From the NCBI RefSeq assembly GCF_030691135.1, contig NZ_JAUYFA010000070.1, positions 1 to 64,000 on the forward strand: 64,000 bases of DNA, in the 5' to 3' direction. The notes under the pieces are model-generated. The model saw only the letters and a program-made list of their open reading frames with translations, was not told the DNA's origin and searched no databases. Both the position numbers and the translations under genes were made by a program. Shown piece by piece: positions 10,981 through 50,384 of the stretch; within the stretch, counting starts at the first letter, position 1, and each line of letters opens with the position of its first letter. This DNA is from Phreatobacter sp. (GTDB taxonomy: Bacteria > Pseudomonadota > Alphaproteobacteria > Rhizobiales > Phreatobacteraceae).

Positions 10981-11547
10981 TCAGGTCGCCGCGTCGATGT
11001 CGTAGAGGCTGACGCCGTGGGCATCGATGGCGACCGTGACGGGACCCATGTCCTCGACCTGCAGCCGCACCAGCCGGTAATGCATCAGCATGTCTGACCA
11101 GCCGACCTCGATGACGCGGCGGATGGCCTGCGTGTGCAAGGCCGCGCCGCCGCCGAGAAACGAGAGATAGACCCCGCCGACCTGGCGCAGCGCCTCGACG
11201 CAGGGCCTGTCCAGCCCGCCCTTGCCGCCCACCGCATGCCAGTTGAAGCCGCTGATAAGCGTCGGCATCAGGGCGTTGAACCGGGTGCTGGTCGTCGGGT
11301 TGATGTAGTGGAGCTGCAGCGTGCCGTCCTTCTCCTCGCTGTAGCTGCCGAGATGGAAGACCGAGGCGCCGTTCAGGTCCATCGGCATCGGCTCGACGCC
11401 ATTGAGGCAACCGATCAGGCGGTGATGGGTGGGCAGTCCGGCTGTCACGACGATCTCGCCGCTCATGATGACCATGTCGCCGGCGCGCAGGGACCGGGCG
11501 GATTCGGCCGTCAGGGGAAAGGTGAGGCGGTGCGTTGTGATCGCCAT
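10981..11547 (-). CDS. Class I fumarase-type hydratase, beta subunit
   Basis: 188 residues, corresponding to the C-terminal (FumA_C/TtdB) domain of iron-sulfur fumarases and tartrate dehydratases. Motifs include AGDMVIMSGEIVVTAG and PTTSTRFNALMPTLI, and a GGKGGLD-type loop. It starts 3 bp after the alpha-subunit gene stop, so both are co-translated. Together they should form a [4Fe-4S] hydro-lyase on an unsaturated or hydroxy dicarboxylate (fumarate, mesaconate or tartrate type). Its place in a CoA-transferase and amidohydrolase operon argues against housekeeping fumarase. Confidence 0.85.
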   Translation of the reverse strand: MAITTHRLTFPLTAESARSLRAGDMVIMSGEIVVTAGLPTHHRLIGCLNGVEPMPMDLNGASVFHLGSYSEEKDGTLQLHYINPTTSTRFNALMPTLISGFNWHAVGGKGGLDRPCVEALRQVGGVYLSFLGGGAALHTQAIRRVIEVGWSDMLMHYRLVRLQVEDMGPVTVAIDAHGVSLYDIDAAT

Positions 11548-39527: not shown

Positions 39528-41654
39528 TCAGACGCTGCCGACCGTCTTCAGGCGCACGCGCGGATGGATCTCCGCCTGGCTGAGGACCGGCGTCTGGGCG
39601 CGGAAGCGCTCAACGATGGAGCGTACGAAGGGCCGGATGCCTGGGCTGGTGAGGAGGACCGGCGCCTCGCCCATGCGGGCGGCATCCTCGAAGGAATCGC
39701 GCACCAGCATGATGAATTCGGACAGTTTCGACGGCTGCATGGCGAGCTGGCGGTCGTCGCCCTGGCCGACGATGGAATCGGCGAAGGCCTGTTCCCAGAC
39801 GGGCGACAGCGCGATGAGGGCGAGGCCGCCGTCATAGCCGGCATATTGGGCGCAGAGCTGGCGAGCGAGGCGCGCGCGCACATGCTCGGCGATCTGTGCC
39901 GGCGAGCGGGTGAAGGCGACGGCCTCGGCGATGCCTTCGAGGATGGTCGGCAGGTCGCGGATGGAGACGCGCTCGGTGAGAAGCGTCTGCAGGACGCGCT
40001 GGATGCCGGATATGGTGATCTGGCCGGGGACGAGGTCCTTGATGAGGTCGCCCTGGTCCTTGGGCATGTCCTTGATGAGCTTCTGCACCTCGGAATAGCT
40101 GAGCAGGTCGGAGACGTTGGCCTTGAGGATCTCGGTGAGATGCGTCGACAGCACGGTCGCGGCATCGACCACCGTATAGCCGCGGACGCTCGCCTCTTCC
40201 TTCAGCGCCGCATCGACCCAGGTCGCGGGCAGGCCAAAGGTCGGTTCGGTCGTGTGGACACCGGGAAGGTCGACCCGACCGCCGGCCGGATCCATGACCA
40301 TGTACTGCATCGGCCAGATCTGGCCCTGGCCGGCATCCACCTCCTTGACGCGGATGATGTACTGGTTGGGCGGCAGCTGCACGTTGTCGAGAATGCGCAC
40401 CGAGGGCATGACGAAGCCCATGTCGGAGGCGAGCTGGCGGCGCAGCGCCTTGATCTGGTCGGTCAGTCGGTCCGAGCCGCCCTCCGACTGGACGAGCGGC
40501 AGCAGGCCGTAGCCGAGCTCGATCTTCAGGTCGTCGATCTTAAGGACGGAGGACATCGGTTCTTCCGCCGGCGGCGCGGCGGCGGCGGCGACCTCCGCGG
40601 CCTCGGCCACGTCCGAGTCCCGGGCGATGCGCTTGGATTCCTCGCCGAGCGAGTAGGCCGCCCAGCCGGCGAGGGCCGCAAGGCCGGCGAAAGGCAGGAA
40701 CGGGATGCCCGGCAGGAGGGCCATCGCGCCCATGACGCCGGCCGAGAGGCCCAGCGCCTTCGGGTAGCCGGTCAACTGCTTGAGCATCGCCTGGTCGGCC
40801 GAGCCGGTGACGCCCGCCTTGGACACGAGCAGGCCGGCGGCGGTTGAGATGATCAGGGCGGGGATCTGGCTGACGAGGCCATCGCCGACGGTCAGGATCG
40901 TGTAGGTCCGCGCCGCCTCGAGGAAGGGCATGCCCTGCTGGGCGACGCCGATGATGAGACCCGCGATGATGTTGATGAAGGTGATGATCAGGCCGGCGAT
41001 GGCATCGCCCTTCACGAATTTCGAGGCGCCGTCCATCGCGCCGTAGAAGGCGCTCTCGTCTTCGAGGTCCTTGCGGCGCGTCCTGGCGGTCTGCTCGTCG
41101 ATCAGGCCGGCGGAGAGGTCGGCGTCGATCGCCATCTGCTTGCCGGGCATGGCGTCGAGGGAGAAGCGCGCCGCGACCTCGGCGATGCGGCCGGAACCCT
41201 TGGTGATGACGATGAAATTCACCAGCACCAGGATGGCGAAGACGATGATGCCGATGACGAAAGAGCCGCCCATCACGAAGTTGCCGAAGGCTTCGATGAC
41301 ATGGCCGGCGGCGTGGGTGCCCTCGTGCCCGTGCGAGAGGATCAGGCGGGTCGAGGCCAGGTTCAGCGCCAGTCGCAGCATCGTGGCGATGAGCAGAACC
41401 GTAGGGAAGGACGAGAATTCCAGCGGCTTGTGGATGAACAGCGCGGTCATGAGGATCATGACCGAGGAGATGATCGATACCGCCAGCATCAGGTCGAGCA
41501 CGATCGCCGGCAGCGGGAAGATCAGGATGATCAGGATGCCGATGACACCGACGGCCATCCACAGGTCGGGCCGGCGCAGCCAGCCGGCCATCTGGCCGAC
41601 CGACATGCCACTGGCCGTCGCGCGCTGTCTGTCGGCTGCCGCCGTATCGCTCAT
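39528..41654 (-). CDS. flhA: Flagellar biosynthesis protein FlhA
   Basis: 708 residues, normal for FlhA. The N-terminal half has about eight membrane helices and the conserved FHIPEP/T3SS gate segment (VNFIVITKGSGRIAEVAARF, SLDAMPGKQMAIDADLSAG, ARTRRKDLEDESAFYGAMDG). The C-terminal cytoplasmic domain (from about 360) binds export substrates and chaperones. It is the main gate of the flagellar type III export apparatus. The upstream region carries a CtrA-like box and a 19-bp element shared with fliF. Confidence 0.97.
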   Translation of the reverse strand: MSDTAAADRQRATASGMSVGQMAGWLRRPDLWMAVGVIGILIILIFPLPAIVLDLMLAVSIISSVMILMTALFIHKPLEFSSFPTVLLIATMLRLALNLASTRLILSHGHEGTHAAGHVIEAFGNFVMGGSFVIGIIVFAILVLVNFIVITKGSGRIAEVAARFSLDAMPGKQMAIDADLSAGLIDEQTARTRRKDLEDESAFYGAMDGASKFVKGDAIAGLIITFINIIAGLIIGVAQQGMPFLEAARTYTILTVGDGLVSQIPALIISTAAGLLVSKAGVTGSADQAMLKQLTGYPKALGLSAGVMGAMALLPGIPFLPFAGLAALAGWAAYSLGEESKRIARDSDVAEAAEVAAAAAPPAEEPMSSVLKIDDLKIELGYGLLPLVQSEGGSDRLTDQIKALRRQLASDMGFVMPSVRILDNVQLPPNQYIIRVKEVDAGQGQIWPMQYMVMDPAGGRVDLPGVHTTEPTFGLPATWVDAALKEEASVRGYTVVDAATVLSTHLTEILKANVSDLLSYSEVQKLIKDMPKDQGDLIKDLVPGQITISGIQRVLQTLLTERVSIRDLPTILEGIAEAVAFTRSPAQIAEHVRARLARQLCAQYAGYDGGLALIALSPVWEQAFADSIVGQGDDRQLAMQPSKLSEFIMLVRDSFEDAARMGEAPVLLTSPGIRPFVRSIVERFRAQTPVLSQAEIHPRVRLKTVGSV

Positions 41655-41698: not shown

Positions 41699-41739
41699 CT
41701 GGGCAAGAATTGCCGGGCAGATGGTTAACGCGAGGTTAC
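41699..41739 (-). promoter_or_regulatory. flhA composite promoter: CtrA-like box plus 19-bp ftr-like element
   Basis: Read towards flhA the order is GTAA-CCTCGCG-TTAAC (a CtrA-type TTAA-N7-TTAAC box with one mismatch; 41739-41724), six bases (CATCTG), then CCCGGCAATTCTTGCCCAG (41717-41699). The end is 44 bp before the flhA ATG. The same arrangement, with the same 6-bp spacing, precedes fliF. The 19-mer is partly symmetrical (GGCAA/TTGCC), which suits a dimeric regulator such as FlbD. Confidence 0.65.
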
Positions 41740-41825
41740 CCGGCGGCCACGCGCAGGCGCTTGTTCCCGGCGGGGAGGAATGGCAAAGCTCTGGGCGGGC
41801 GACCCAGCCCCTCATGGAGCCCGAC

Positions 41826-42203
41826 ATGGCCGACTTCCGTCTGTCCGGCGCCGGCGGCACGCCCGGCGGCCTGATCACCTTCTTCGTCGGCCTCGGCATG
41901 ACGGTTGCCGGGGCCTATCTGCTGACGAATCAGGTCTCCGTCCACGGGGGATCGTGGACTTTGGGCGGCTATTCGGCCTTCGGCCTGTCGCTGGTTCCCA
42001 TCCTCTTCGGCATCGGGATGCTGTTCTTCGACGGCTCGTCGCGCTTCGGGTTCCTGCTGCTCTTCGCCGGCGTGATCATCATCGCCGCCGGTATCCTGGT
42101 CAACCTGACGATCTATTTCGTTCCCACCAGCCTCTTCAACACGCTGATGATGCTCGGGCTGACGGCCGGCGGAATCGGGCTCGTCCTGCGCTCGCTGCGG
42201 TAA
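41826..42203 (+). CDS. Small multi-helix membrane protein next to fliF
   Basis: 125 residues with about four membrane helices: LITFFVGLGMTVAGAYLL, GLSLVPILFGIGMLFF, FLLLFAGVIIIAAGILV and LMMLGLTAGGIGLVLRSL. The N-terminus is glycine-rich (GAGGTPGG). ATG 41826 has GGAG six bases upstream. It lies between the divergent flhA gene and the fliF operon; its place suggests a link with motility but nothing in the sequence proves it. Confidence 0.65.
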   Translation: MADFRLSGAGGTPGGLITFFVGLGMTVAGAYLLTNQVSVHGGSWTLGGYSAFGLSLVPILFGIGMLFFDGSSRFGFLLLFAGVIIIAAGILVNLTIYFVPTSLFNTLMMLGLTAGGIGLVLRSLR

Positions 42204-42236
42204 AATCGACATACCGCCCCAAAACGCACGGCCGCG

Positions 42237-42277
42237 TTAACCATCCGGTAACCACCCACCCGGCAAATCTTGCCCAG
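42237..42277 (+). promoter_or_regulatory. fliF composite promoter: CtrA-like box plus 19-bp ftr-like element
   Basis: TTAA-CCATCCG-GTAAC (42237-42252, one mismatch to TTAA-N7-TTAAC), then six bases (CACCCA), then CCCGGCAAATCTTGCCCAG (42259-42277). The fliF start follows 33 bp later. The 19-mer differs from the flhA copy at one position only. In Caulobacter, fliF is activated by CtrA and repressed by FlbD bound at an ftr site near its start, and FlbD is encoded in this operon. Confidence 0.7.
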
Positions 42278-42310: not shown

Positions 42311-44011
42311 ATGGCTGGTGGCGTCTTGAACGGCATGATGGAGTTCATGAAGAAACTGGGAGCGCCCCGCCTCGCGGCGATGGGGGCGGTCTCGTTCGGC
42401 CTGGTCGGGTTCTTCGTCTACATCATCCTCAGGATGAGCCAGCCGCAGATGGCGCTCCTCTTCTCCGATCTCACGCTGGAGGATTCCGCACAGGTCGTGA
42501 AGGAACTGGAACGCCGGCAGGTGAAGTTCCAACTGCGCAACGAGGGCGCCCAGGTCTTCGTCCCGCAGGAACAGGTCGCCCGCGTCCGCCTGCAACTCGC
42601 CGAGGGCGGCATGCCGCGCGGTGGCGGCGTCGGCTACGAGATTTTCGACAAGGGCGACGCGCTCTCCTCTACCTCCTTCGTGCAGAACATGAACCAGCTG
42701 CGGGCGCTGGAAGGCGAGCTCGCCCGTACCATCCGCGGGATCGAGCGGGTGCAGTCGGCCCGCGTCCACCTGGTTCTGCCCGAGCGCGCCCTGTTCTCGC
42801 GCGAGCGGACCGAGCCCTCCGCTTCCATCGTGCTCCGGGTCCGCGGCGGGCTGGAGCCGCAGCAGATCCGCGCGGTGCGCCACCTCGTCGCCTCGGCGGT
42901 GCGCGGCCTGTCGCCGCAGCGCATCTCCATCGTCGACGAGGGCGGCCGGCTCCTCGCCGACGGTGCGGGCGATGCGACGGGCATGATGGGGTCCACCGTC
43001 GACGAGCGGAAGGCTGGCCAGGAGCGTCGCCTGCGCGAGCAGGTCGAGAGCATCATCGCCTCCGTCGTCGGTCCCGGCCGGGCCCGCGTCCAGGTCGCCG
43101 CCGACATGGACTTCAACCGCGTCACCCAGACCTCCGACGATTTCGATCCGGAGCGTCGCGTGGTGCGCTCGACCCAGACCCGCGAGGAACAGTCCAGCTC
43201 CAACGAGGGGCGCGGCGACGGCCAGGTCACGGTCGGCAACGAGCTTCCCGGCGCCAACCAGACCGGTGCCGGCGCCAATCCGTCGCGCGAGGCGAGCCGC
43301 AAGACCGAAGAGACGGTCAATTACGAGATCGCGCGCACCCAGCGCACGGAGGTGATCGAGGGCGGTCGCATCAGGCGCGTGTCGGTGGCGGTTCTCGTCG
43401 ACGGCATCTATGCCCGTGACGCGCAGGGCAACGTCAACTACCAGCCCCGGCCGGCCGAGGAGCTGGAGCGCATCGGCGCACTGGTGCGTTCCGCCATCGG
43501 CTTCGACCAGCGGCGCGGCGACCAGGTCGAGATCGTCAACCTGCGCTTCGCCGAGGCGCCCCAGCTCGCCGCACCGGAAGCCGAGAGGCCCTGGTGGATG
43601 GTCTACGACTTCACGAAGGAGGACATCCGCTACGCCATCGAGCTGGCGGTACTGCTGCTGGTGTCGCTGCTGGTCATGCTGTTCGTCGTCCGGCCGCTGC
43701 TTCGCCGCATCGTGGCGCCGGACGAGGTCCCGGCGGCGCTGCCTGCTGGTAGCACCGGCACTGCCGCGGCGCGTGCCGATGGGGCCACGGGCGGCGAGCC
43801 CGGTGAGCGTGGCGACGGCACCGTGGCGATGAAGTCGCCGCCGCTGGTGCCGGGCGCAGAAAGTGCCACCATGAAGATGATCGAATTTGCCCAGATCAAG
43901 GGCGAGGTGCATCAGGCCTCGCTCACGAAGGTCGGAGAACTGGTCGAAAAGAACCCGCATGAGACGGTGTCGATCATCCGCCAGTGGCTTAATGACGGGG
44001 AACCGAAATGA
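42311..44011 (+). CDS. fliF: Flagellar MS-ring protein FliF
   Basis: 566 residues. An N-terminal helix ([19 protein letters not shown]) and a C-terminal helix near 445 ([19 protein letters not shown]) flank the periplasmic ring-building domains ([44 protein letters not shown]). The cytoplasmic tail (about 520-566) ends with the FliG-binding part. It forms the membrane ring on which the rotor is built. ATG 42311 was used; ATG 42335 is a possible later start. It overlaps fliG by 4 bp. Confidence 0.95.
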
Positions 44012-45093
44012 CCGTGGCCCAGATTCAACGCGACGCGGAATTCGGCAGCGCTCTCGCCGCCCTCTCCGCCGATGGCCGCATCAACACTCTCGCCGCCAAG
44101 GGGCTGAACGGCCAACAGCGCGCCGCCATCCTCATGCTGACGCTGGGCGACAAGGTGTCCTCCCGCATCTGGAAGCTGCTCGATGACGACGAGATCCGGG
44201 TCCTGTCCATCGCCATGTCGCAGCTCGGCACGGTCGAGCCGGACGTGGTGGAGAGCCTGATGCTCGAGTTCGTCGGCCGGCTGTCGGCCGCCGGCGGCCT
44301 GATGGGCAATTTCGACGCCACCGAACGCCTGCTCTCGCAGTTCATGCCGTCGGACCGCGTCGCCAGCCTGATGGAGGAGATCCGCGGACCTGCCGGCCGC
44401 AACATGTGGGAGAAGCTCTCCAACGTGCAGGAGCAGGTGCTCGCCAACTATCTCAAGAACGAATATCCGCAGACGGTCGCGGTGGTGCTCTCCAAAATCA
44501 AGCCGGAACATGCCGGCCGGGTGCTCGCCATCCTGCCCGAGGAGTTCGCCCTCGACGTCGTCGGCCGCATGCTCAAGATGGAGGCGATCCAGAAGGACGT
44601 GCTCGAGCGCATCGAGCAGACGCTCCGCACCGAGTTCATGTCCAATCTCTCGCAGACCTCGCGGCGCGACAGCCACGAGGCCATGGCGGAGATCTTCAAT
44701 TCCTTCGACCGGCAGACCGAAACGCGGTTCATCACGGCGCTGGAAGAGCAGAGCCGCGACTCGGCCGAGCGCATCAAGAGCCTGATGTTCACCTTCGACG
44801 ACCTCGCCAAGCTCGACGCCGGCTCGGCGCAGACGCTCGTCCGACAGGTCGAGAAGGACAAGCTGGCGATCGCGCTCAAGGGCGCTTCGCAGACGATGCG
44901 CGACTTCTTCCTCGCGCAGATGTCGACCCGCGCGGCCAAGATGCTCCAAGACGACATGCAGGCGCTCGGACCCATGCGCCTCAAGGACGTGGACGATGCG
45001 CAGGGCGTGCTCGTCAATCTCGCCAAGGACCTCGCCGCGAAGGGCGAGATCATGATCTCCAAGAACCGTGCCGACGACGAACTGGTCTTCTGA
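44008..45093 (+). CDS. fliG: Flagellar motor switch protein FliG
   Basis: 361 residues. The N-terminal FliF-binding domain ([20 protein letters not shown]), the middle FliM-binding domain with the EHPQT-type motif in its variant form [20 protein letters not shown], and a C-terminal torque domain with charged residues ([20 protein letters not shown]) are all present. It forms the rotor ring that meets the stator. The ATG is within the end of fliF, so translation is coupled. Confidence 0.95.
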
Positions 45094-45097
45094 GGAC

Positions 45098-45742
45098 ATG
45101 AACGTGGCAGCGCCGGTCAAATATCTCTTCGAGACGGAGTTCGGGCAGGAGGCGAAGCGCGCCGCCGAGCCGCAGATCGCGCTCACCGACCATGAGCAGT
45201 TGATCGCGCTCGCCCGCCAGGAAGGCCACGCGGCGGGGTTCATCGCCGGCGACGCCCGGGCCATGGCTTCCATCGAGCGGCAACGCGCCATCGCCCTCGG
45301 TGACCTCGGCGACCGGCTGACGGTGGCCGCCGCCGCGCTGGCCACCCTCGAGGGCCGTCTGGAGGCTGAGGCCATCGACATCGCGGTGGCCGTGGCGCGG
45401 AAACTGTCAGGGGCTCTGGTCGCCCGCGAGCCGCTGGTCGACATCCGCGATCTCGTCGCCGACTGCTTCGCCAATCTGCGCAGCGCGCCGCATCTGGTCG
45501 TGCGTGTCAGCGATGAACTCCTCGAGGACGCCCGCGCCGAACTGACCAAGCTCGCCGCCGAGCGCGGCTTCGACGGGCGCCTCGTCATCCTGGCGGAGCC
45601 GGGCATCCCGCTGGGCGACTGCCGCATCGAATGGTCGAGCGGCGGCGTCATGCTCGACCGTGACGAGACCGCCCGCCGTATCGCCGAGGCGGTCGGCCGC
45701 TATATCGCCTCCACCTCCGGTAACGCCGAGGCCCTGACATGA
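45098..45742 (+). CDS. fliH: FliH-like flagellar export ATPase regulator
   Basis: 214 residues. A short N-terminal part is followed by a helical region (HEQLIALARQEGHAAGFIAG) and a C-terminal FliH/HrpE-type domain: VARKLSGALVAREPLVDIRD, VRVSDELLEDARAELTKLA and CRIEWSSGGVMLDRDETAR. FliH binds and restrains the FliI ATPase; fliI itself is not in the window. Conservation is low, but the location between fliG and fliN and the C-terminal motif support it. Overlaps fliN by 4 bp. Confidence 0.85.
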   Translation: MNVAAPVKYLFETEFGQEAKRAAEPQIALTDHEQLIALARQEGHAAGFIAGDARAMASIERQRAIALGDLGDRLTVAAAALATLEGRLEAEAIDIAVAVARKLSGALVAREPLVDIRDLVADCFANLRSAPHLVVRVSDELLEDARAELTKLAAERGFDGRLVILAEPGIPLGDCRIEWSSGGVMLDRDETARRIAEAVGRYIASTSGNAEALT

Positions 45743-46104
45743 CCAATCCGACCGAAACCGGCATGCCGCTGCCCGATCTCGAAAATGACGGCATGGACGT
45801 GGTGCCCGGCAGCAATGCCGGTATGGAGGCCGACGAGGGCGCCGACGACAGTTCCAAGGACGCTGCGGATCTGGAAGCCGTCTTCGACGTGCCGGTCAAT
45901 GTCTCCGCCGTGCTCGGCCGGTCGCGGATGGATGTCGGCGAACTCCTCAAGCTCGGCCCGGGTACTGTTCTCGAACTCGACCGCAAGGTCGGCGAGGCCA
46001 TCGACATCTATGTGAACGACCGTCTCGTCGCGCGTGGCGAAGTGGTGCTCGTCGAGGATCGCCTCGGCGTCACCATGACCGAAATCATCAAAGCCGAGCG
46101 CTGA
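45739..46104 (+). CDS. fliN: Flagellar motor switch protein FliN
   Basis: 121 residues. After an acidic N-terminal extension (ADEGADDSSKDAADLEAVFD) the SpoA/FliN domain begins: VPVNVSAVLGRSRMDVGELL, then LGPGTVLELDRKVGEAIDIY and VNDRLVARGEVVLVEDRLGV. It forms the C-ring base with FliM, which is not in this operon. It lies between fliH and flbD with a 4-bp overlap upstream. Confidence 0.94.
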   Translation: MTNPTETGMPLPDLENDGMDVVPGSNAGMEADEGADDSSKDAADLEAVFDVPVNVSAVLGRSRMDVGELLKLGPGTVLELDRKVGEAIDIYVNDRLVARGEVVLVEDRLGVTMTEIIKAER

Positions 46105-46117
46105 AGGAAACCGAACG

Positions 46118-47497
<1,380 letters not shown>

Positions 47498-48075: not shown

Positions 48076-48807
48076 ATGGCCGATACCTTCCTCATCTACG
48101 GCGGCTCGGGTGGCATCGGATCGGCGCTGGCGCGCCGGCTGTGCGGCCGCGGGCATCGGGTTCACCTGGTGGCGCGCGACCGCGAACGCCTGGAGGCCCT
48201 CGCGACCGAGATCGGCGCGAGCTATTCGGTGGCCGACGTCACCAACCGCGCCAGCATTGAGGCGGCCGCAGCCGAGGCCGGCGACAGGCTCGCGGGCCTC
48301 GCCTATTGCGTCGGCTCGATCAATCTCAAGCCCGTGGCGCGTCTCACCGATGCCGATTTCACCCGCGATTTCGAGATCAACGCCCTCGGTGCCGTGCGTG
48401 CCGTCCAGGCGAGCCTCCCGGCCCTCAAGGCCTATGAGGGATCGACGGCCGCGATCCTTCTCGTCTCGACGGTGGCGGTGGCCCAGGGCTTCGCCGCCCA
48501 TGCCTCCGTCTCGATGGCGAAGGGCGCGGTGGAAGGCCTGACCGTGGCGCTCGCGGCCGAACTCGCCCCGAAGATCCGGGTCAACTGCGTCGCGCCATCG
48601 CTGACGCGGACGCCGCTGGCCAAGGCGCTGACCGGCTCGGAGACCATGGCCAACGCCATCGCCGCGCTGCATGCAATCCCGCGGCTCGGCGAGCCGGACG
48701 ACGTGGCGGCGCTCGGCGCGCTGTTGCTCGATGCCGAGGCGGGATGGATCACCGGCCAGATCATCGGCGTCGACGGCGGCCGCTCCATGCTGCGCACCAA
48801 GGGCTGA
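48076..48807 (+). CDS. Short-chain dehydrogenase/reductase adjacent to photolyase gene
   Basis: 243 residues. The nucleotide-binding start is [18 protein letters not shown], with the variant [14 protein letters not shown] where NNAG is usual. The catalytic tyrosine region is altered: [11 protein letters not shown] occupies the YxxxK place, so Tyr is replaced by Ser while Lys is kept. The C-terminal [13 protein letters not shown] is typical. A changed catalytic tyrosine suggests altered or lost dehydrogenase activity. It precedes the photolyase gene by 8 bp and is probably co-transcribed with it. Confidence 0.82.
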
Positions 48808-48815
48808 GACGGGCC

Positions 48816-50384
48816 TTGCCGACGCTGCGCCTCGTTCTCGGCGACCATCTGTCGCGTGACGTCGCCGCCCTCGACGGGCTGGATGCGGCCGGCGACGTCG
48901 TGCTCATGGTCGAGGTTGCGGCGGAGACGACCTATGTCCCTCACCACAAGCAGAAGATCGTCTTCATCCTGGCGGCGATGCGGCATTTCGCCGAGGCACT
49001 GCGGCAGGAGGGCATCCGTGTCGACTATGTGCGGCTCGACGACCCGGCCAATAGCGGCAGCTTCACCGGCGAGCTGACGCGGGCGCTGGCGCGACATGCC
49101 GTCGACCGCATCGTGGTGACCGAGCCCGGCGAGTGGCGGGTGCGCGCCATGATGGAGGATTGGGCCGCGGCGACCGGGCTGTCGGTCGAGATCCGCGAGG
49201 ACGACCGGTTCTTCTGCCGGCGCGGCCGCTTCGCCCGCTGGGCGGATGGTCGCAAGTCGTTCCGCATGGAATTCTTCTATCGGGAGATGCGGCGCGAGAC
49301 GGGGCTGCTGATGGAGGGTGACCAGCCCGTCGGCGGGCAGTGGAACTACGACGCCGAGAACCGGAAGACCCTGCCGAAGGGCGCGCGGCCACCGCTTCGC
49401 CTGCGTTTCGCACCGGACGCAGTGACCCGCGGCGTGATGGACCTCGTGAACACGCGTTTCGCCGGCCATTTCGGCGATCTCGAACCCTTCGGCTGGGCGG
49501 TGACGCGGGCGGATGCGCTGAAGGCGCTCGACCATTTCATCGCCGAGGCGCTGCCCGCCTTCGGCGACGTGCAGGACGCGATGAAGCGCGGTGAGCCCTT
49601 CCTCTATCACGGCCTCGTCTCGCCCTATCTGAATGTCGGCCTGCTGACGGCGCGCGAGGTGTGTCTGGCGGCGGAGACGGCCTGGCGCCGTGGCGCCGCC
49701 CCGCTCAATGCGGTTGAGGGTTTCATCCGCCAGATCCTCGGCTGGCGCGAATATGTCCGCGGCATCTACTGGCACCAGATGCCCGGCTATGCCGAGACGA
49801 ACGCGCTGGCCGCGGCGCGCCCGCTGCCCTGGTTCTACTGGTCCGGCGAGACCGATCTCGCCTGTCTGGCCGAGGTGGTCGGCGACACCCGTCGCAACGC
49901 CTATGCTCATCATATCCAGAGGCTGATGGTCGCCGGCAATTTCGCGCTCCTCGCCGGCATCCGCCCGGCTGAGGTGGAGGCCTGGTATCTCGCCGTCTAT
50001 GTCGACGCCTTCGACTGGGTGGAACTGCCCAATGTCCACGGCATGGTGATGTTCGCCGATGGCGGGCTCCTCGCGTCCAAGCCCTATGCCGCGTCCGGCG
50101 CCTATATCGACCGGATGTCCGACTATTGCGCGGGCTGCACCTACGACCCCAAGGTGAAGGTCGGCAAAGGGGCCTGCCCGTTCAACCTGCTCTACTGGAA
50201 CTTCATCGCCGAGAATGCCGGCACGCTGCGCGGCAATCCGCGAATGGCCATGCCCTATCGCACCTGGGAGGGCATGGAGAGCGGCCGCAAGGCGCAGATT
50301 CTGACCGAGGCGCGCGCCTTCCTCGACGGGCTGGATGCACGCCCGGCGGCATCGCGCGGGCGCCAGACGATGCTCGATCTCTAG
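48816..50384 (+). CDS. FeS bacterial cryptochrome/(6-4) photolyase (PhrB type)
   Basis: 522 residues. The N-terminal domain begins [17 protein letters not shown]; the FAD-binding C-domain has [40 protein letters not shown] and [13 protein letters not shown]. With the TTG start at 48816, the four cluster cysteines fall at 350, 438, 441 and 454 (DLACLAE, YCAGC, GACPFN). These are the positions I recall for Agrobacterium PhrB, which supports both the call and the start. It repairs (6-4) photoproducts using blue light. GAGACGGG precedes the TTG. Confidence 0.93.

Follow-up and report, generated by a model that had tools for sequence, protein, structure and literature searches.

CtrA-type boxes joined to a putative FlbD operator upstream of flhA and fliF in Phreatobacter sp., and their conservation in the order Hyphomicrobiales

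The stretch of Phreatobacter sp. DNA analysed here (the window, 64,000 nucleotides) carries a flagellar gene cluster in which flhA and fliF lie on opposite strands. The gene flhA (39528-41654, minus strand) matches PF00771 with E=1e-259, and its product is 89 and 92% identical to FlhA of two Phreatobacter genomes, the closest named loci, placing the locus in the order Hyphomicrobiales. On the plus strand, fliF (42311-44011; PF01514, E=5.7e-60, and PF08345) is followed by fliG (44008-45093; PF01706, PF14841 and PF14842), a fliH-like gene (45068-45742) whose match to PF02108 is weak (E=0.0029; 18 bits, cut-off 24.1), fliN (45739-46104; PF01052) and flbD (46118-47497). The latter encodes a sigma-54 activator with a Fis-type helix-turn-helix, which reaches 805.7 bits against NCBIfam NF050807 (cut-off 750) and shares 67% identity with the FlbD protein of Caulobacter sp. 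D5. A previous reading of this DNA, made from the sequence only, had assigned flbD to the fliF operon; the gene is contiguous with fliF-fliG-fliH-fliN and all lie on the same strand, forming a probable operon. The genome further encodes CtrA, with 82% identity to the Caulobacter protein, one RpoN, and a FliX candidate that scores 108.2 bits against PF10768 (cut-off 25) and stays below the stricter NCBIfam FliX cut-offs in the profile search. Just past the flagellar genes, at 48744-50384 (plus strand), the window holds a gene for a deoxyribodipyrimidine photolyase-related protein (PF04244). A hydrophobic ORF of 125 aa without a Pfam match is situated between flhA and fliF (41826-42203, plus strand). 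Among 12 Phreatobacter-type loci compared, it was 85-98% identical in full-length or long matches, and two loci were without a match.

Two divergent 41-bp elements flank this small ORF. In both, a TTAA-N7-TTAAC box that carries one mismatch is followed after six bases by CCCGGCAAWTCTTGCCCAG. The flhA copy (41739-41699, minus strand) reads GTAA-N7-TTAAC, 6 bp, CCCGGCAATTCTTGCCCAG; its CtrA-type box GTAACCTCGCGTTAAC occupies 41724-41739, the spacer 41718-41723 and the 19-mer, a putative FlbD operator, 41699-41717, with the palindromic core GGCAATTCTTGCC at 41702-41714. The fliF copy (42237-42277, plus strand) reads TTAA-N7-GTAAC, 6 bp, CCCGGCAAATCTTGCCCAG, and consists of the box TTAACCATCCGGTAAC at 42237-42252, the spacer at 42253-42258 and the second putative FlbD operator at 42259-42277, whose palindromic core GGCAAATCTTGCC lies at 42262-42274. 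The sequence-only reading had described a CtrA-like box with one mismatch at both genes, a distance of 6 bp and 19-mers that differ by one base, and each of these features was recovered in both copies. The observation of two copies at flhA and fliF is confirmed, and the 41-bp pattern matched twice in the window, compared with no match in 100 dinucleotide-preserving shuffles. That reading had also termed the promoter duplicated. The two copies are real, but a recent event in which one promoter was copied to the second gene is unsupported, given that nine of the 11 further genus genomes contain both; of the remaining two, one has a single copy and the other none. The start of fliF bears on the position of its copy. 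We chose the ATG at 42311, but the open frame extends upstream as far as an ATG at 41780, a start that would place the fliF copy inside the gene. Third-position GC upstream of 42311 in the fliF frame is 0.51, compared with 0.88 in fliF, and this low value, together with the conserved 125-aa frame, points to a start near 42311, downstream of the copy.

In the 4.2-Mb Phreatobacter genome, the 19-mer with up to three mismatches was detected at 6 places (2 for the reversed control pattern) and the core GGCAANNNTTGCC at 9 (reversed control, 3). Six of the nine core places precede flagellar operons, namely flhA, fliF, fliK-flgD, flgI/fliX, flgF/fliL and flgB/fliO, where fliO scored just under the Pfam cut-off. 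The remaining three are non-flagellar as far as seen: C49 lies in a frame that matches a molybdopterin-binding enzyme and C111 in one that matches a pyridine nucleotide-disulphide oxidoreductase, both profile-scanned, and the third is C54. The distance of nine bases (N9) between the palindrome and the adjacent CtrA half is kept in this genome only at flhA and fliF, and not at the flgB/fliO, flgF/fliL, flgI/fliX and fliK sites. At fliK, flgI and flgF, a -24/-12 match of 10/11 that points to the gene is located 98, 98 and 103 bp, respectively, from the palindrome start; at flhA, fliF and flgB/fliO, the promoter scan revealed no -24/-12 match of 9/11 or better. A separate sigma-54-like site (10/11) was noticed in locus L017 at 10855 (plus strand), upstream of dksA at 11002 (PF21157, PF01258) and beside fliX.

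To follow the element through the order, TAAC-N9-GGCAANNNTTGCC was searched in 297 genomes with the outer CtrA half left free, and genes were placed by tblastn. This fixed-spacing composite yielded 141 sites in 108 genomes, and the reversed-pattern control 9 (counted from the result table). With gene starts that are approximate due to their placement by tblastn, 117 of the 141 sites precede flhA (48), flgB (45), fliF (20), fliO (2) or flgF (2) by less than 450 bp, so that copies of the motif are present at flagellar genes of relatives throughout the order. A full TTAA-N7-TTAAC box with at most one mismatch is found at 116 of these 117 flagellar sites, at 58 of them exactly, and at 7 of the other 24 sites, in a comparison of nine letters of which the search pattern had already fixed four; this supports the assignment of the box to CtrA. 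When the spacing was left free from 3 to 20, TAAC-N9-GGCAA was the commonest form among the 150 matches listed (N9 62, N20 13, N8 11), most of the N20 class corresponding to the outer halves of these CtrA boxes. The argument that equal spacing and order reflect functional constraint, initially drawn from two promoters, receives comparative support from the prevalence of N9 among the matches listed. The conservation of these promoters is unusually strict, and the composite or a near form of it is present in Bradyrhizobium, Methylobacterium, Bosea and Devosia loci.

The 24 exact matches without an assigned flagellar gene are heterogeneous. Nine are coding look-alikes that read GN[LI]CRCTGY in an open frame, which we take to be the [2Fe-2S] motif of CoxS/XdhA-type proteins. 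Five, all from one family of the order, precede a similar frame adjoining flbD; the one scanned of these five, in L121, encodes a LysE-type exporter (PF01810), which may be under flagellar and cell-cycle control in this family. One match, the second site of genome G027, precedes flhA by its coordinates, another adjoins fliO, and the last eight are taken as chance. TAAC at N7 was also seen on the far side of the palindrome in G137, G249, G295 and G027, and some palindromes may therefore serve two divergent promoters.

Degenerate forms were sought in 28 loci chosen from approximately 40 named loci without an exact composite, using a 92-site matrix that is strict because it was built from distinct exact-pattern sites. 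In eight of the 28 (Pseudovibrio, two Devosia, NORP94, CSMAG2577, Caulobacteraceae H1, Caulobacter D5 and Parvibaculum) the composite was the top match upstream of fliF, with scores of 17 to 34. Among the remainder, one locus reached 12.7 in reverse orientation and the others at most 3.5; the maximum in shuffles was 9.9.

The palindrome recurs in a different arrangement upstream of flgI. The 30 flgI loci fetched scored best among the 72 genomes in which FlgI was found (101 searched). All 30 contain the palindrome, with no more than one mismatch, in the 400 bp ahead of the gene; in 26 of the 30 a -24/-12 match (at least 9/11) follows 87-132 bp after the palindrome start. Shuffled flgI-locus sequence gave the palindrome in 32 of 3000 cases and the palindrome with a sigma-54-like site in none of 3000, while unshuffled 400-bp flgI windows, in which the true sites are included, gave the palindrome in 441 of 3000 and also the sigma-54-like site in 94. 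Its location some 100 bp ahead of promoters of the sigma-54 type suggests a sigma-54 activator as the binder of the palindrome. At the composites, a sigma-54-like site 40-140 bp downstream was present in 3 of 117, two of them at flgF. A single operator sequence thus appears to be used in two ways, joined directly to a CtrA box and as an enhancer of sigma-54 promoters. This would agree with the two roles that FlbD plays in Caulobacter, as described in the accessible parts of two studies (PMC3930126, PMC3096577).

FlbD was detected in 161 of the 297 genomes (E at most 1e-120) and FlhA in 215 (E at most 1e-150). Over all genomes, a composite match occurs in 95 of the 161 with FlbD compared with 13 of the 136 without it. 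After exclusion of the nine coding look-alikes, the composite is present in 91 of 157 genomes with both FlhA and FlbD versus 4 of 58 that have FlhA without FlbD (Fisher p=1.3e-12), an association that is partly due to shared ancestry since the FlbD-less genomes mostly belong to a different flagellar clade. The four genomes with FlhA alone and a composite are G137, which has a piece of FlbD by the site, and G123, G128 and G214, which are 56, 88 and 90% complete. FlhA is divergent (best E above 1e-200) in 52 of the 297 genomes, none of which contained FlbD or the composite, which implies that flagella are controlled by a separate scheme in this group. The composite was also found in 5 of the 82 genomes without an FlhA match, 2 of which have FlbD.

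The exact composite is absent in 66 of the 161 FlbD genomes. Of these 66, we picked 20 in which flbD and flhA lie together, and 17 of them carry a near-match of the same geometry (score at least 23.7; best of 400 shuffles 7.8), located at fliF in 14 cases and beyond flbD on the flhA side in 3. No near-match was found in L345, L346, where the contig is cut, and L351. These near-matches weaken the notion that genomes without an exact composite are free of FlbD control. The recognition helix of FlbD is almost invariant in 43 aligned proteins including that of Caulobacter D5, with those of Blastomonas and L069 the most different. The sequence-only proposal that the 19-mer is an FlbD site is strengthened by the comparative data, with FlbD as the predicted binder.

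From the sequences and their spacing, the degree of conservation, the neighbouring genes and the joint occurrence with FlbD, we infer CtrA and FlbD as binders, the operon, the positions of the start sites and the direction of control, and we consider it probable that both elements are early class II promoters of the Caulobacter fliF type, which are activated by CtrA and repressed by FlbD. Phosphorylated CtrA would bind TTAA-N7-TTAAC at approximately -39 to -24 and recruit housekeeping RNA polymerase. The product of flbD, a gene that follows fliF in the same run of genes, would later occupy the adjoining palindrome GGCAANNNTTGCC, which by geometry would cover approximately -14 to -2, so that bound FlbD would block the polymerase and switch the early genes off. 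At fliK-flgD, flgI and flgF, with the palindrome about 100 bp upstream of the -24/-12 site, the same protein would act as a sigma-54 enhancer-binding activator. Position would then decide between repression and activation, resulting in a switch from early to middle genes.

Full CtrA sites in Caulobacter start close to position -35, the one in ctrA P2 at -39, according to the accessible part of PMC4287350. Laying this geometry on the two elements predicts start sites at about 41700 for flhA and about 42276 for fliF. In 40 distinct flhA composites, conservation stayed at or below 0.5 bits at every position between 4 and 48 bases beyond the palindrome, and in 38 flgB composites one downstream position reached 0.54 bits. 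Since no conserved block lies downstream, the -10 is most simply placed inside the palindrome, and the fixed spacing would represent promoter geometry. It may also let FlbD touch bound CtrA. More tentatively, and as a possibility to which we would give somewhat less than even weight, the 41-bp element could be a rigid bipartite module that predates the split of Hyphomicrobiales and Caulobacterales, in which the FlbD operator serves as the -10 of a CtrA promoter and the switch is coded by position alone.

Several other explanations of the palindrome have to be weighed. It could be bound by a regulator other than FlbD that was co-inherited with this flagellar type, with CtrA activating and that factor repressing. 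The assignment to FlbD is a prediction, any clade-specific factor would co-occur with the composite when FlbD-less genomes mostly have a divergent FlhA, and the motif is not enriched in Caulobacter D5, where GGYAANNNYTGCC gave 17 matches compared with 55 for the control. We nevertheless regard this explanation as unlikely in view of the flbD gene downstream of fliF, the almost invariant FlbD helix and the sigma-54-type promoters about 100 bp after the palindrome at 26 of 30 flgI loci. Moreover, an exact palindrome without a CtrA half at N9 precedes fliF in 11 of 34 usable named loci. It also seems improbable that FlbD binds at flhA, fliF and flgB as an activator or as a co-activator with CtrA instead of repressing. 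The rigid spacing could reflect a contact between CtrA and FlbD, and the sign of control cannot be told from sequence, but 114 of the 117 composites lack a sigma-54-type site 40-140 bp downstream and the palindrome is predicted to overlap the core promoter. The accessible part of PMC3096577 further reports for Caulobacter that deletion of fliX raises the expression of fliF-lacZ and lowers that of fliK-lacZ.

A sigma-54 promoter could itself be suspected in the 19-mer, which contains GG...TTGC. Its GG-to-GC gap is 8 and not 10, and neither promoter region holds a -24/-12 site; on this spacing and the negative scan at flhA and fliF, the candidate was rejected and its probability is very small. 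An origin of the repeated motif from chance or coding constraint is suggested by the nine coding look-alikes among the 141 matches and by the fliF frame, which is open through the fliF copy. It has a next to negligible probability given the lack of matches in shuffles, the 117 of 141 sites at flagellar genes, and composition and conservation that favour the downstream fliF start; chance was rejected by the shuffles and the gene context across the order.

The preferred explanation of both elements as promoters activated by CtrA and probably repressed by FlbD agrees with the earlier interpretation, whose combination of a CtrA box, an FlbD palindrome and a spacing constraint is supported by the comparisons presented here. 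Promoters of the Caulobacter class II type were already known. Our analysis adds that putative members of this type are widespread in FlbD-bearing genomes of the order and share one spacing at three operons. In the open-access literature that was searched, we found no report of the composite outside Caulobacter. A model from one organism is thereby turned into a searchable rule: a CtrA box, nine bases and GGCAANNNTTGCC would mark flagellar operons of the early class, and this palindrome placed about 100 bp ahead of a -24/-12 site those of the middle class. This rule predicts FlbD targets in little-studied relatives such as Bradyrhizobium, Methylobacterium, Bosea and Devosia, in which it would link flagellar timing to the cell cycle, and it offers a simple place to probe the fixed spacing.

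In Caulobacter sp. D5, the fliF promoter carries TTAAC-N9-GGTAAATCCTGCC, with the same distance as in the Phreatobacter elements. This element reads TTAACCATCGACTG-GGTAAATCCTGCC, differs at 2 of 10 core bases and has a poor outer CtrA half; we take its palindrome to be ftr4. The fliF element of Caulobacteraceae H1 shows the same geometry and, like that of D5, two palindrome mismatches. The D5 element fronts a cluster of fliF, fliG, flbD and flhA, and Phreatobacter likewise encodes CtrA, FlbD, FliX (by Pfam only) and RpoN. Unlike D5, Phreatobacter has the perfect palindrome GGCAANNNTTGCC and a further element at flhA, and elsewhere in the order the element also stands at flgB. In D5, where flhA lies downstream of flbD, no palindrome with zero or one mismatch was found at flhA in 1.2 kb. 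Within the flagellar query set, GGYAANNNYTGCC matched in D5 only at fliF and at a flagellin locus, where a sigma-54-like site follows 88 bp on.

The palindromes located 98-103 bp before the -24/-12 sites of Phreatobacter fliK, flgI and flgF resemble the ftr enhancers of sigma-54-dependent class III/IV promoters in Caulobacter. At flgI, a palindrome and a sigma-54-like site 74-98 bp apart were present in three of four Caulobacterales genomes; in the fourth, that of Caulobacter D5, no palindrome with a sigma-54 site was detected at this gene. According to the accessible part of PMC3930126, FlbD acts through ftr4 to repress fliF in Caulobacter and is an activator of the middle genes. FlbD sites in this organism have been mapped by Fumeaux et al., as cited in PMC12421884.

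CtrA-dependent fla2 promoters are known from Rhodobacter sphaeroides, and flbD is absent in the Rhodobacteraceae shown in the accessible portion of the same study (PMC6180460). This system resembles Phreatobacter in having CtrA-type boxes at flagellar promoters, but differs from it in the reported absence of flbD; in two Rhodobacterales-type loci with fliF placed, composite scores were no better than those of shuffles. Control of a Bradyrhizobium flagellum by FlbD and FliX has been described by Dardis (2021), as cited in the accessible part of PMC9977809. Bradyrhizobium belongs to the same order and has FlbD and FliX as in Phreatobacter, and the composite stands before flhA in all four Bradyrhizobium loci examined.
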